From the IMG/VR virus record IMGVR_UViG_3300008448_000256, positions 1-37,999 of that record: DNA of 37,999 nucleotides; one strand, written 5' to 3'. The stretch comes from a virus. The position numbers and the translations under genes are program-made. Positions within the stretch are counted from its first letter, which is position 1. The number at the start of each line of letters is the position of its first letter. Below are positions 1 to 35,179 of the stretch, piece by piece. The notes below the pieces were generated by a model. It ran no database searches and was not told where the DNA came from. It worked only from the letters and a program-made list of their open reading frames with translations.

Positions 1-399
1 TGGGGATTTCTTCATCCCTGCGGCTACGTCAGCCAAGATGCGGTTTGCCCATGCTTTGTGATCGACCTTCTCAAAAGTCTTTGCCATCAAGCCGCCCAGC
101 ACCTTCGCGGCAATCTCTGGGTTGACCACAGGGGCAGGCAACATCACAGGCGCTTTGCTCGGTGCGCGTTGGCAGAGAGTGCGGAACTGTCGGGCGTTGG
201 GCACTGTGTCGGGCAGGTTCTTCAGTCCCCACAAAATGGCCTGCTTTGCATCGTCCGAGTGCATGAAGTCGCTCAGTGCGTAGCCCCAAGCGGTTTTCAC
301 ATCAGCGATAGGGGCAGTGCCTAGACTGCGCTCCCATGCTGCCCCGTAGGTAGCTCCAAGCACGTTAAAAACGTGGTCAACGGCTGCTGCTGCGCTCAT
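1..399 (-). CDS. Replication protein P-like, C-terminus beyond left edge (partial)
   Basis: Open reading frame of 133 codons with no stop before position 1, so the C-terminus lies outside the window. The ATG (399-397) overlaps the TGA of the upstream DUF1376 gene in an ATGA junction, indicating translational coupling. The protein begins MSAAAAVDHVFNVLGATYG and contains an NARQFRTLC stretch. Its place directly after an O-like initiator gene, and the short 'x-NxRQFRxLC' pattern, resemble helicase-loader or P-type replication proteins of lambdoid phages of Betaproteobacteria. The family call is inference from position and general pattern; no ATPase motif is visible in the part present. Confidence 0.75.
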   Translation of the reverse strand, partial: MSAAAAVDHVFNVLGATYGAAWERSLGTAPIADVKTAWGYALSDFMHSDDAKQAILWGLKNLPDTVPNARQFRTLCQRAPSKAPVMLPAPVVNPEIAAKVLGGLMAKTFEKVDHKAWANRILADVAAGMKKSP

Positions 400-1247
400 T
401 GTGTGATCTCCAAAAATGGGGGGGTTACGTCGATGACTTGGCCGTTCTGTTGCTCGGCCTTGATGCGGTCGGGGTGGGTGCGGTTGGTCATTTCTTCCCA
501 ACGTGCCCAGCCTGCTTCGCGCTCTTGTTGGGCAAAGGACTTCGCTTGTTTTGCAGGTGCGGCAGTGGTTGACTTTTCCGCTACCCAATGGGCCTTGAAT
601 GCAATCCAGCCACGGGCGCAGCACTCACGCAGCGCCGCTTCAAGTTCCCAGCCAGCCTTCTCAGCCTCGGCCTTGATGCCAGCCAATGCTGTCGGGGTGA
701 GCTTGGCTTTGCGGTCTTTGCGAAGTTGAACAAAGTCAGTCCACACGGAAAGATCAACGCCGTCAGGCGCGGCGACAGCCGGTGCTTTTGTATTTACTAC
801 CTTTGGTGTTGGTGTTGGTGTTGGTGTTGGTGTTGGTAGCTCAACGTCCGCTCGTTTTTCTTGAGCGTCCGTTGAACGTTCGCTGCTTGATTCGTTAGCG
901 TCCGTTGAGCGAACGTTTAACGACTTAGCTTTACGTGCGTTCACCGAAGCCTGAGCAGATGCGCGAGCCTTCGTTTGCTTGTCCTGCATACGTTCGATTT
1001 CAGACTCGCAGCGGTTGTGCATCCAGCCGCTTTCTGTGAGCGTGAAAAACTCGTTCAACACGGCTTCAACATCAGCAGCAAACGAACGCATACGCACCAG
1101 CTTTGCAGTGGTTTGAATGTCGGCAGGCAAAGAGCCTTCACGCAGGTAATACTGGTCAAGCAAGCGGCGATAAGCCAAGTCTTCCATTGGCTCTAGGTGC
1201 GCTGTGTGTGCAGCGTAATCACCCACATGGAAGGGGTAGTAGTTCAA
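396..1247 (-). CDS. DUF1376 (YdaU-like) replication initiator, O-like
   Basis: A 283-aa protein whose first 110 residues (MNYYPFHVGDYAAHT..., then AYRRLLDQYYLREG) match the DUF1376 pattern found at the replication locus of many prophages. A Ser/Thr/Pro-rich linker follows, with a Pro-Thr dipeptide run and a duplicated RSTDA segment. The C-terminal part (about 165-240) looks like a second small helical domain. The start is TTG, one base after the TAA of the upstream 54-aa gene, chosen because family members begin MNYYPFH. The linker DNA holds iteron-like repeats (see 842-920), so the gene may carry the phage origin as lambda O does. Initiator role is inferred from family and context. Confidence 0.85.
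   Translation of the reverse strand: MNYYPFHVGDYAAHTAHLEPMEDLAYRRLLDQYYLREGSLPADIQTTAKLVRMRSFAADVEAVLNEFFTLTESGWMHNRCESEIERMQDKQTKARASAQASVNARKAKSLNVRSTDANESSSERSTDAQEKRADVELPTPTPTPTPTPKVVNTKAPAVAAPDGVDLSVWTDFVQLRKDRKAKLTPTALAGIKAEAEKAGWELEAALRECCARGWIAFKAHWVAEKSTTAAPAKQAKSFAQQEREAGWARWEEMTNRTHPDRIKAEQQNGQVIDVTPPFLEITQ
803..838. repeat. Hexanucleotide microsatellite TTGGTG x5-6
   Basis: Five full TTGGTG units plus a partial sixth, encoding the (Pro-Thr)n run in the linker of the DUF1376 protein on the minus strand. Because the unit is six bases, slippage would change linker length without a frameshift. Confidence 0.9.
842..920. other. Candidate replication origin: iteron-like repeats inside the O-like gene
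   Basis: GCGTCCGTTGA occurs at about 865 and 898 with a degenerate copy (ACGTCCGCTCG) at about 844. GAACGTTCGCT (873-883) and AGCGAACGTTT (909-919) form an inverted repeat between the copies. The repeats lie in the low-complexity linker of an initiator-like gene, the same relation as lambda ori within gene O. That analogy is the basis for calling it an origin; the repeats themselves are directly visible. Confidence 0.45.
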
Positions 1248-1824: not shown

Positions 1825-1856
1825 AAATGAAGGCACTCACAAACGAAAGTGCCTTT
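1824..1856 (-). terminator. tR1-like intrinsic terminator after cro
   Basis: On the minus strand, AAGGCACT and AGTGCCTT (plus coordinates 1848-1855 and 1830-1837) form an 8-bp stem followed by CATTTTTC. It lies just after the cro stop codon and before the cII-like gene, the place of lambda tR1, implying that downstream replication genes need read-through. Confidence 0.65.
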
Positions 1857-1860
1857 CATG

Positions 1861-2067
1861 TCAGGACACGGAAACGGGGGATTGCTTCTTGGTGCGCTTG
1901 GGTTTTGCCGCCTTCAACCGCAGGCAAGCGCCATTGACTTGATCTGCCAAAGATTGAGGGAGTACTTCGGGCCACATGTAGATGGCCTGCACGGTTTGGT
2001 AGCCCATCGCTTCTTGCGCTTTCTTGGGCGTACCACCGAGCAATTCAATTGCGGTTTGTTTTTGCAT
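1861..2067 (-). CDS. cro: Cro-like repressor
   Basis: 68 aa beginning MQKQTAIELLGGTPKKAQEAMG, then YQTVQAIYMWPEVL: the compact HTH of Cro/YdaS-type proteins with the typical 'LLGG-T--KAAEA-GY-T-QAVYMWP' layout. It is divergent from the CI-like repressor across an operator-bearing interval. A TACAAT -10 element (2078-2073) lies only about 6 bases before the ATG, with TTGCAT 18 bases further upstream, so the transcript may be leaderless or nearly so; GAGG is too close to the ATG to be a normal ribosome binding site. Cro would repress the lysogenic promoter and tune early transcription. Confidence 0.85.
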   Translation of the reverse strand: MQKQTAIELLGGTPKKAQEAMGYQTVQAIYMWPEVLPQSLADQVNGACLRLKAAKPKRTKKQSPVSVS

Positions 2068-2135: not shown

Positions 2136-2555
2136 ATGAGTACCTATGGCGAGCGCCTGAAAGAGGCAATGGCATACCGCAGCGCGCAAATTGGCCGCGA
2201 AGTCACCCGCATTGAGTTAGCAAATGCGGCAGGGTGTAGCCGCCAAAACATAGGAATGATCTTGACCGGCGCGCAGGGTGAAGATCAAAAGCTGTCTACT
2301 GAAAGACACGCAAAGGCAGCGGCCTACTTGAAAGTAGACGCAGACTGGTTGCTTGAAGGCAAAGGCTCGATGGAGCTTAAAAGCAACATGGCAAGCGAGC
2401 TATCAGAGCTGGCGCTTGGCCTTGGCGCACTGCTAGACAAAATACCAAGGACAGACCCTATCAAGCGCGCAAGGGCGCATGCAGCAGCGTGGGAGGCTAT
2501 ACGTAAAGAGCTGCCACCCGAAGACGCCAATCATCCAGCGCAGCCTGGCTATTGA
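2136..2555 (+). CDS. CI-like prophage repressor lacking a peptidase domain
   Basis: 139 aa from ATG 2136. Residues about 20-50 (REVTRIELANAAGCSRQNI) form an XRE-type helix-turn-helix, and LKVDADWLLEGKG at about 70 is the usual end of this N-terminal domain. The remaining 60 residues are helical and hydrophilic; there is no S24/LexA-type Ser-Lys protease domain, so RecA-stimulated self-cleavage is not possible from what is seen. It is divergent from cro with shared operators. Its 3' end is overlapped by a LexA-box-controlled gene on the other strand, which suggests induction through an antirepressor. The TTG-initiated longer frame is rejected. Confidence 0.85.
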   Translation: MSTYGERLKEAMAYRSAQIGREVTRIELANAAGCSRQNIGMILTGAQGEDQKLSTERHAKAAAYLKVDADWLLEGKGSMELKSNMASELSELALGLGALLDKIPRTDPIKRARAHAAAWEAIRKELPPEDANHPAQPGY

Positions 2556-2670
2556 AGTAGCAGACGATGCGACCAGCATTAGCGCAGCGCATGACTTCCT
2601 CTGCAATCTCTGCATCCGTCTCTGTAGTTCTTACCCTGAGTTCGGGTTTTTCGTTGTTATCGTTGTTCAT
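2497..2670 (-). CDS. Small SOS-controlled protein, candidate antirepressor
   Basis: 57 aa, MNNDNNEKPELRVRTTE..., ending DDWRLRVAALYV; acidic N-terminal half and a compact C-terminal half. The ATG (2670) follows GGGGCAAGA, a good ribosome binding site. A near-consensus LexA box lies 14 bases upstream of the start. Its last 59 bases overlap the 3' end of the CI-like gene on the opposite strand. Small LexA-regulated antirepressors that inactivate non-cleavable CI repressors are known in Salmonella Gifsy prophages; the role here is inferred from promoter, size and location, as no family is recognised by sequence. Confidence 0.6.
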   Translation of the reverse strand: MNNDNNEKPELRVRTTETDAEIAEEVMRCANAGRIVCYFNSQAALDDWRLRVAALYV

Positions 2671-2683
2671 TCTTGCCCCTTAA

Positions 2684-2703
2684 TACTGTGTATTTATACA
2701 GTG
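2684..2703. promoter_or_regulatory. LexA (SOS) box
   Basis: TACTGTGTATTTATACAGTG contains CTGT-N8-ACAG and agrees with the enterobacterial consensus at 17 of 20 positions. Candidate -10 hexamers for the minus-strand gene (TATAAA or TATTAA) lie inside or next to it; no strong -35 is visible. Confidence 0.85.
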
Positions 2704-2884: not shown

Positions 2885-3142
2885 ATGCAAGTAAGTGCTT
2901 CTGACTTCATCGCAATCATCATTGCCTTGGCTACTGGCTGTGTTGTAGCTGTCGGGCTGGCTTGGCGCTGGTATGTCAAACTCAGAGACTGCCAATCGCT
3001 TTTGGATAAGGCTCTGAAGGACTTGGAGTTGACCTCTGCTGAGTTGGCCGCGCTCAATGTAGCCGCGAACAGAATGAAGGCGTCCAAGTCGGATGGTTTC
3101 AACGACCCAATCAATTACCCGCCATCGCGCTACGTTGCCTAA
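2885..3142 (+). CDS. Small single-span membrane protein in rex position
   Basis: 85 aa starting MQVSASDFIAIIIALATGC; residues about 8-27 form one hydrophobic helix (FIAIIIALATGCVVAVGLAW), followed by a Lys/Leu-rich amphipathic segment. AAAGGAAGTG precedes the ATG. It lies downstream of the repressor on the same strand and upstream of a terminator and the second operator cluster, the place held by lambda rex genes, so expression in the lysogen and a role in excluding other phages are possible but unproven. Confidence 0.7.
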   Translation: MQVSASDFIAIIIALATGCVVAVGLAWRWYVKLRDCQSLLDKALKDLELTSAELAALNVAANRMKASKSDGFNDPINYPPSRYVA

Positions 3143-3276: not shown

Positions 3277-3584
3277 CATGCCGCAAACAAAGCAGCTAAC
3301 ACCGGAGTGATCGAGCTAGGTGTTCAACGTTCAGTCCTTCCGAGACTTCAAACGGAAACGGCGCAGCTTGGCCGGAGAAACAAGCAAAGGCGAAAGCCGA
3401 GTAGGGCCGGGGATGTACGTGTAAGGCGTCGTCTAGGTCGGTGGGTGCCCCCTACTTCATGCCGCAAGGCCGTATCAAACAACTCTGCGCAAAAACGCAG
3501 GGCGTGTGCCTTCGGGTGTGAAACACGCAATGAGCCGGAGCCGGTGACAACCGGGAGATGTCGGCCAGTCCCTTTACGGAGGGC
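3277..3584 (+). ncRNA. Highly structured early leader RNA (candidate)
   Basis: About 300 bases with no convincing gene but dense local hairpins: TTCCG/CGGAA (3338-3357), GCTTG/CAAGC (3366-3385), GGC-GAAA-GCC (3389-3398), GTGGG/CCC-TAC (3441-3455), GCC-GCAA-GGC (3461-3470), CTGCG/CGCAG (3485-3500), GCGTGT/ACACGC (3502-3528, with an inner UUCG loop), CCGGT/ACCGG (3541-3554), CCCT/AGGG (3570-3583). Two stems carry GNRA loops. It begins at the predicted early transcription start and ends at a terminator, so it is a leader or a free small RNA. It may act in antitermination like HK022 put RNA (speculative). Short frames exist (for example 34 codons from a GTG at 3320) but lack good ribosome binding sites. 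Confidence 0.5.
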
Positions 3585-3620
3585 ATTCAAAAGCGCATTC
3601 CAAAGAGTGCTTTTTTGAAT
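3585..3620 (+). terminator. Terminator after the leader RNA
   Basis: ATTCAAAAGC (3585-3594) ... GC-TTTTTT-GAAT (3609-3620), with an inner ATTC/GAGT stem around CAAA. A-rich on one side and T6 on the other, so it may work in both directions. It lies 20 bases before the HNH gene. Confidence 0.65.
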
Positions 3621-3639
3621 CAACCAAGGAGTAACCGTT

Positions 3640-4137
3640 GTGCGCAATGACCCATCAATTACATGTGAGCTGGTTAGGTCGATTTATGACTACGACCCTG
3701 ACACGGGAGCCTTTAGCTACAAGGCAAGCCGAGGCCGTATGTCTAAAGGCTCGATAGCTGGCACGGTAAAAAAAGGATATGGAGTCCTAGCCATAGGTGG
3801 GAAATTCTTTCAGGCATCTCGCGTGGCTTGGCTATACGTGCATGGGTCATGGCCAATAAATGACATAGACCACATCAACCACAACCCACTGGATAACAGG
3901 ATTGAAAACCTAAGAGACATATCGCATCAAGCAAATATGCACAACCAATCGCGGGTCAGGGCAAATAACACAACCGGCGTGGTGGGCGTCTATTACTTCG
4001 CAAGAAACAAGCGGTATCACGCACAAATAAACATCAAAGGGAAGCCTACCTATCTAGGCTCTTTTTTAAACATTGAGGATGCTGAAAAAGCTTACTTAAA
4101 GGCAAAAGAAACCTATCACGCAATACCTGCGCAATAA
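3640..4137 (+). CDS. HNH homing-type endonuclease with AP2 domain
   Basis: 165 aa. HNH core at about 75-92 (DIDHINHNPLDNRIENLR, with Asp77-His78 and Asn82/Asn90), followed by an AP2/ERF-type DNA-binding domain at about 112-158 (TTGVVGVYYFARNKRYHAQI...YLGSF). This arrangement is typical of free-standing phage HNH endonucleases that spread by cutting unoccupied alleles. The GTG start is set by AAGGAG eight bases upstream. It is more A+T-rich than its neighbours and has a terminator on each side, consistent with an inserted selfish gene. Confidence 0.9.
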   Translation: MRNDPSITCELVRSIYDYDPDTGAFSYKASRGRMSKGSIAGTVKKGYGVLAIGGKFFQASRVAWLYVHGSWPINDIDHINHNPLDNRIENLRDISHQANMHNQSRVRANNTTGVVGVYYFARNKRYHAQINIKGKPTYLGSFLNIEDAEKAYLKAKETYHAIPAQ

Positions 4138-34433: not shown

Positions 34434-34991
34434 TTAAATAGCGCTCCATTCGCCGAAAAGTTCGGGGTTCTTTATCGCCGCATACCTAAGCTTTCCTTTT
34501 ATTTCTTCAGAAAGATGACCACGCTTCAGCGCGTCGCCAAACGTCCGCTTTAGCCACCATATGCGCTTTCTATTAGCATCACCATGAAGCCTTTTCGCAT
34601 TGCTGGCCCCATTTGCAGCCCTGACGCTGCGAGGACAAAATGGCTGGTTTCCTCCATCTGCAATGTTTAGCAAACGAAAGCCGTCTGATCGGTATTGAGA
34701 AATAGCCTCAACCTCGGAAGCCTCCCAATCCCAAGAGGACATTAATACCGATAACTTTGGAACAAGCCCTCGCCTCAAAAGACTGCGAATCCAATCGTAA
34801 AGTGGCGTTTTCCTGTCGCTGGATAGGTGCTGTTTAAAACGGGTGAGAGAGTTCTTTGCCTTGCCGATGTAACGCACATCACCGCTAATCGGGTCATAAA
34901 TGGCGTATATCTCTACACACGCAGCGCGGAGGCTCTTGCCTTCCTCTAGCAGCGCACACACAGCATCAGCAGCGACTTGATTGAATGCCAT
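34434..34991 (-). CDS. GIY-YIG endonuclease fused to a TerS-like N-terminus
   Basis: 185 aa from ATG 34991 (ATGA junction with the upstream gene). Residues 1-25 (MAFNQVAADAVCALLEEGKS, LRAAC) are a second, diverged copy of the TerS start. Residues 27-105 form a GIY-YIG nuclease: VEIYAIYDP ... VRYIGKAKNSLTRFKQHLSS with Tyr29, Tyr41-Ile42-Gly43 and Arg51. A basic tail (KRIWWLKRTFGDALKRGHLS) is a probable DNA-binding region. A homing endonuclease that captured the terS start during insertion is the simplest reading. Confidence 0.85.
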   Translation of the reverse strand: MAFNQVAADAVCALLEEGKSLRAACVEIYAIYDPISGDVRYIGKAKNSLTRFKQHLSSDRKTPLYDWIRSLLRRGLVPKLSVLMSSWDWEASEVEAISQYRSDGFRLLNIADGGNQPFCPRSVRAANGASNAKRLHGDANRKRIWWLKRTFGDALKRGHLSEEIKGKLRYAAIKNPELFGEWSAI

Positions 34992-35179
34992 CACACATCC
35001 CACCTATCAGCGCCGATACAAACGAATCTCTCATCGTTTGCGGTGAACTCTTCTTCAGTGATTCGCTCGGCAGTGTCAAACGGGATGTATTGCCCTTCCC
35101 ACGATAGGTAAACGGGCAAGTCTTGCGGGTAGCTCTCCAAAAGCTTGCGGAGTTCTCCGACTGTGATTGGCTTGGTCAT
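34991..35179 (-). CDS. Hypothetical protein
   Basis: 62 aa, MTKPITVGELRKLLESYPQD, then LPVYLSWEGQYIPFD...FVCIGADRW. The 'h-x-ELh-hLe-hPxDhPVhh' start is frequent in small phage proteins; no known activity. ATG preferred over the upstream GTG; ATGA-coupled on both sides. Confidence 0.75.
   Translation of the reverse strand: MTKPITVGELRKLLESYPQDLPVYLSWEGQYIPFDTAERITEEEFTANDERFVCIGADRWDV

Follow-up and report, generated by a model that had tools for sequence, protein, structure and literature searches.

How does a temperate phage sense DNA damage when its repressor carries no self-cleaving peptidase? The question is raised by a complete virus record of 37,999 bp, analysed over its whole length and called the window hereafter. 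It encodes an integrase, a portal protein, a terminase, a lysozyme, and a lambda-like early region, and is therefore regarded as a temperate phage. The initial annotation of this DNA had singled out a 57-aa gene opposite the 3' end of the repressor gene as a candidate antirepressor under LexA control. The comparisons presented here make it quite probable, as far as sequence can tell, that this gene is the LexA-controlled antirepressor and the SOS sensor of the prophage. Its product would most likely represent an undescribed type of antirepressor that wakes the prophage, with its gene placed inside the immunity region.

The immunity region and its repressor

The region comprises the following features (window coordinates):

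1830–1855, minus strand: terminator-like hairpin (tR1-like) after cro, at which a transcript reading through from the LexA promoter could end
1861–2067, minus strand: Cro-like regulator, divergent from the repressor; weak phrog_409 match, 68% identity in the related contig L002
2075–2090: perfect palindrome TGTAATTCGAATTACA between cro and the repressor gene, probable CI/Cro operator
2136–2555, plus strand: CI-like repressor gene, 139 aa, helix-turn-helix (HTH) and helical C-terminus, without S24 peptidase
2497–2555: overlap of the convergent small gene and repressor gene, 59 nt by coordinates
2497–2670, minus strand: gene of the 57-aa small protein, candidate SOS-induced antirepressor, ATG start (supported by its ORF, homology, and purifying selection in relatives)
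2676–2681, minus strand: Shine-Dalgarno sequence AAGGGG, 5 nt before the ATG, read directly
2684–2703: LexA box TACTGTGTATTTATACAGTG, matching the consensus at 17 of 20 positions and complete in its CTGT-N8-ACAG core; 13 nt separate it from the ATG
2693–2698, minus strand: TATAAA within the LexA box, a probable −10 hexamer read directly, with a poor −35 region
2784–2803: second LexA-like site TGCTGTATGCAAACACAGTG with the full core, about 100 bp further upstream, 18.4 bits

The arrangement first described, with the small gene overlapping the repressor 3' end by 59 bases and a ribosome binding site between the LexA box and the ATG, is reproduced by these positions. The assignment of Cro is aided by its homologue in L009, which matches phrog_409 at E 5e-4.

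The repressor had been described as a 139-aa protein with an HTH and without an S24 protease domain, and this description holds. Three profile libraries (Pfam, PHROG, and NCBIfam) give weak HTH matches and no match to an S24 peptidase, and in the predicted fold a linker joins an HTH domain to two C-terminal helices. A Pfam scan of 27 window proteins revealed neither an S24 nor an M78 (ImmA-like) protease. Matches of the repressor in Acinetobacter phages were set aside as longer proteins that align in their N-terminal part only, and a plasmid search with the repressor of a relative gave no match. The single match of the genome_contigs scan was an unrelated S24 repressor in Derxia; searches across the order and class of this Derxia, with 399 and 369 genomes sampled, yielded nothing.

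Several other observations concern the window at large. A search for RNA families in it returned none. Ahead of an HNH endonuclease gene (3640–4137) lies a GC-rich stretch with many hairpins (3290–3640), which matches no Rfam family and does not fold clearly better than shuffled sequences (z −1.3). At 34434–35003, a GIY-YIG-like gene overlaps the small terminase gene, and the resemblance of its N-terminus (MAFNQVAADAVCALLEEGKSLR) to that of the small terminase (MAFDQQKADEICIALEDGLSLR) suggests a possible homing endonuclease insertion. Finally, a DUF1376 protein of the replication region (396–1247, minus strand) contains the Thr-Pro repeat run PTPTPTPTPTP.

The small gene and its relatives

Searches with the single 57-aa sequence found nothing in phages, viral_contigs, Pfam, PHROGs, or NCBIfam, and a PDB match at E 0.19 was dismissed as chance. 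The family was reached instead by anchoring on the repressor and Cro, and then by means of a repressor profile. The contig L002, found via its repressor, encodes a repressor 60% and a Cro 68% identical to those of the window, together with an antisense 63-aa ORF at the same place and a CTGT-N8-ACAG site directly upstream of it. Wherever the repressor reaches 50% identity or more over the aligned part, the contig carries an antisense small gene over the repressor 3' end, with a gene overlap of 38–77 nt and a LexA-like site 129–140 nt past the repressor stop. A profile of the small protein extended the family to the more divergent members L070, L072, and L076, where the gene is antisense to a repressor of about 134 aa, likewise devoid of a peptidase. 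In total, about 20 distinct phage contigs besides the window carry a homologous gene of 57–64 aa, counting L073, which ends before a repressor would appear. The LexA-box/ORF pair is thus kept beside a peptidase-less CI gene in every readable relative.

Searched with a profile HMM built from the relatives only, without the window and L002, a set of 1,460 ORFs gave the window ORF as its best match (E 8.5e-7), followed by the L002 ORF (E 0.0085). Outside the overlap, pN/pS in seven relatives is 0.34 for the reading frame of the gene; the two alternative frames have values of 1.05 and 1.29 and contain 1–5 stops per sequence. On the HMM ranking and the pN/pS values, the small gene is a genuine protein gene, whose reading frame is retained under purifying selection in related phages. 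The window protein is 27–36% identical to the proteins of family B, the main group of relatives, with a conserved core of residues. A beta-alpha-beta-alpha fold is predicted for it (mean pLDDT 82). Fold searches gave no significant match and none that assigns a function, which does not imply a novel fold.

The same data bear on another reading of the locus, in which the LexA promoter acts chiefly through its transcript: antisense RNA or polymerase collision would silence cI in cis, read-through would feed cro, and the ORF would be secondary. On the minus strand, no terminator-like site lies between the LexA box and cI, and the next one follows cro; a transcript from the LexA promoter would be antisense to the whole of cI, and the small gene occupies the same place in all relatives. 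However, an antisense transcript would work without a conserved reading frame, whereas purifying selection acts on the small protein outside the overlap and its residue core persists across the low identities given above. Moreover, the pre-existing pool of stable repressor would survive antisense silencing. A chief role of the transcript is therefore regarded as unlikely, and its strict form, antisense RNA only, is ruled out by the codon evidence. Selection on the frame indicates that the protein matters; an action of the transcript on cI does not follow from it, and an antisense effect of this kind is possible.

LexA-like sites at the start of the small gene

The LexA matrix was compiled from 16 E. 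coli SOS boxes, the lowest-scoring of which reaches 13.5 bits; it presupposes the CTGT-N8-ACAG motif, which may not be that of the host. As a control, the same scan was applied to four phages with known LexA-controlled antirepressors. In SPC32H, the best site lies directly before ant; in 186, directly before tum, at the annotated LexA site; and in Gifsy-2, before dinI, with which the gftA operon opens. In the stretch of N15 that was read, the best site falls at about 39,562, between the annotated genes 47 and 48 of a record that carries no antC annotation.

In the window, the box at 2684–2703 scores 24.5 bits and the site at 2784–2803 scores 18.4, followed by a next best site of 8.2. The former is also the sole site with at most three consensus mismatches in 37,999 bases, and no such site occurred in 100 shuffles. 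The initial annotation had reported 17 of 20 matches for this box; the count agrees, and the matrix ranks it as the best site of the 38 kb. That account is extended here by a second LexA-like site and by a family of relatives. The matrix scan found no other good LexA site and no second LexA-controlled gene in the window. Since, in addition, no S24 or M78 protease was found among the scanned proteins, the small gene is the only visible SOS input. The site at 2784–2803 could also serve a plus-strand ORF of 85 aa with membrane-like character (2885–3142).

In each of the 15 distinct loci scanned, the highest-scoring LexA-like site of the whole locus coincides with the point where the small gene begins. 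Most boxes of family B score 11.5–15.9 bits, compared with 13.5 for the lowest-scoring E. coli box of the matrix, and values below any of these E. coli boxes are found in L032 (4.9 bits) and L072 (7.6 bits). Given such scores, LexA binding may be weak in some relatives. The family-B box covers the start codon (ATGTATAAAAACACAGTA; pattern TGTATAAA(T/A)ACACAGTA) and lies directly behind a TTGTGG/TATGAT promoter, so that the mRNA of the small gene is probably leaderless there.

Counted from TGTA, the corresponding window sequence, CTGTATAAATACACAGTA, shares 15 of 17 positions with the family-B box; where family B has ATG, it has CTG, and the LexA half-site is thereby complete. The window gene is translated from a new ATG, 31 nt further down and preceded by a Shine-Dalgarno sequence of its own, and the old frame reads LYKYTVLRGKNEQR before it meets a stop. 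This relic of the N-terminus of the relatives (L034–L045) stands in another frame upstream of the 57-aa ORF (window 2657–2703, minus strand). The migration of the start codon is apparently tied to a single base of the LexA box. As the box codes for protein in the relatives but not in the window, the agreement of 15 of 17 bases argues that the DNA itself is conserved.

This comparison weighs on the suggestion that the box is the site of another regulator, or a mere consequence of coding constraint on the MYKNTV N-terminus. In family B, the box does overlap codons 1–6, and several boxes score low. In the window and L002, however, the box lies outside the ORF, and the window box combines 17 of 20 matches with the full core. 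The synonymous sites in the box are nearly frozen; of the conserved codons within it, three of four are invariant across sequences, compared with none of ten outside the box and the overlap. Regarding another regulator, the presumed CI/Cro operators differ in sequence from the box. They also vary between phages (TGTAATTCGAATTACA in the window is replaced by TGTAAACATGTTTACA in the relatives) while the box is constant, which points to a host regulator. Both forms of the suggestion are highly improbable.

Two loci provide a contrast. L019 encodes a homologous Cro and an S24 repressor that retains Ser and Lys; an antisense gene is missing from this locus, and none of its LexA-like sites scores above 6.9 bits. 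In L046, the HTH half of the repressor is related and the C-terminal half is different, and the locus has no small gene and no LexA-like site above 4.0 bits. The absence of the gene beside this other C-terminal half is a hint that the small protein targets the C-terminal part of the repressor.

Another job is conceivable for a small LexA-controlled phage gene, for example that of a DinI-like SOS modulator. The small protein would then be SOS-induced for modulation of SOS or RecA, host take-over, or exclusion, and the repressor would be relieved in some other way. DinI-like functions do occur in the LexA-controlled phage operons of Gifsy and 186, and no fold match assigns a function to the small protein. 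On the other hand, the protein shows no similarity to DinI, and the linkage of its gene to this type of repressor is complete in the loci read, L046 lacking gene and site alike in spite of its related HTH half. That no protease or second LexA-controlled gene was found in the window likewise speaks against relief by another route. Such a purpose is considered decidedly unlikely.

Proposed induction and comparison with known antirepressors

What the comparisons establish, at the level of sequence, is the conservation of three things: a coding gene, its pairing with a repressor that lacks the peptidase, and a LexA-like box at the promoter or start of that gene. From these we infer LexA binding, SOS induction, binding to the repressor, and a possible antisense effect, which together would form the following course of events. 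In the lysogen, LexA would sit on the box over the −10 region and keep the small gene off. Upon DNA damage, LexA would be cleaved and the small gene transcribed leftward. The beta-alpha-beta-alpha protein would then bind the non-cleavable repressor, probably at the helical C-terminal part responsible for dimerisation, and the repressor would leave its operators, allowing pR and pL to fire. The same transcript would run antisense through cI toward cro and may secondarily lower repressor synthesis.

The functional class of LexA-controlled antirepressors of non-cleavable repressors is known. The window displays three features of this class, namely a LexA box at the promoter (as a sequence match), a peptidase-less repressor, and a small conserved coding protein; in protein family and layout, its gene differs from the described members. 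The closest parallel is that of the Gifsy prophages, whose repressors have been shown experimentally to be inactivated by small LexA-controlled antirepressors (PMC3121763). The analogy drawn with Gifsy by the initial annotation is borne out for the inactivators but not for their location, since the Gifsy genes lie outside the immunity region (PMC3121763), unlike that of the window. GftA, GfoA, and GfhA, like the candidate in the window, are small LexA-controlled proteins facing a non-cleaved HTH repressor of about 138 aa, and the C-terminus of the Gifsy-2 repressor weakly resembles the window repressor family (E 0.03 in a database of 7 sequences). The Gifsy antirepressor is encoded in a dinI-gftA-irsA operon and is not antisense to the repressor, whereas the window gene is. 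Alignment of the family profile with hhalign gave no homology to GftA (probability 0.11, E 0.52).

Ant of SPC32H is similarly the product of a single small gene with a LexA-like box directly upstream. However, it has 86 aa, its gene adjoins that of the tailspike, some 14 kb away from rep, and Rep is a different protein of 198 aa. No homology was found by hhalign (probability 1.05, E 0.051, over 28 columns). Tum of 186 is annotated in its record as a LexA-controlled inhibitor of CI DNA binding, the role proposed for the window protein. It differs in its 146 aa with a DinI-like part and in the distance of about 6 kb from cI, and hhalign again gave no homology (probability 0.32). The statement that the 57-aa protein belongs to no known antirepressor family accordingly stands with respect to Pfam, PHROG, NCBIfam, and PDB, and to GftA, SPC32H Ant, and Tum.

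AntC of N15 is an antirepressor of the SOS regulon according to a title cited in PMC10432266, and the N15 repressor is reported as non-proteolytic (PMC10432266). The strongest LexA-like site of the N15 stretch read falls in the genome part of the SOS-controlled antirepressor. That gene is far from the main repressor gene, unlike the one in the window; with antC unannotated, the two are set apart by position and not by sequence. The smORF modules of polylysogenic phages, including Qtip, encode very small orphan proteins that lie beside the switch and inactivate cI (PMC10432266). They are driven by a phage transcription factor independently of DNA damage, whereas the window gene has a LexA box, and the study in question excluded non-proteolytic repressors (PMC10432266). 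An SOS antirepressor antisense to cI was not found in the literature searched, which omits most subscription journals.

A comparable arrangement was encountered in a second set of enterobacterial phages, consisting of L047–L054 and the GenBank phages Yersinia vB_YenM_21.09 (L062) and Flyfo siphovirus Tbat2_3 (L063). Their repressors have an S24 half without the catalytic Ser and Lys. Downstream of each lies an antisense, unannotated ORF of 66–80 aa with a Shine-Dalgarno sequence, which overlaps the repressor gene over much of its length:

L047, 3468–3668, minus strand: antisense ORF
L062, 2459–2701, minus strand: antisense ORF
L063, 2465–2701, minus strand: antisense ORF

The best LexA-like site of the locus stands directly before the antisense ORF (21.9, 18.9, and 25.1 bits). 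The 66-aa ORF of L047 was rejected as a member of the window family (hhalign probability 0.38). This second antisense set, with its unrelated small proteins, is to be taken as a lead and not as a result. It raises the tentative idea, which we hold to be possible rather than probable, that a LexA-controlled small gene antisense over the cI 3' end is a convergent induction module. At least two unrelated families of small proteins would then have been paired with two unrelated non-cleavable repressors, and one transcript would both make the antirepressor and silence new repressor synthesis.

Taken for the LexA-controlled antirepressor of the prophage, the small gene would probably explain how, outside the Salmonella and coliphage models, DNA damage is sensed by phages whose repressors cannot be cleaved, and it gives a new orphan protein family a proposed target. 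Being short, antisense, and orphan, such genes escape annotation, and the Yersinia and Flyfo records show no gene at the corresponding position. A simple rule may serve to find them, namely a best LexA-like site adjoining a peptidase-less cI. The family also presents an unusual operator over a start codon, in which a single base change separates an ATG start from a full LexA half-site.
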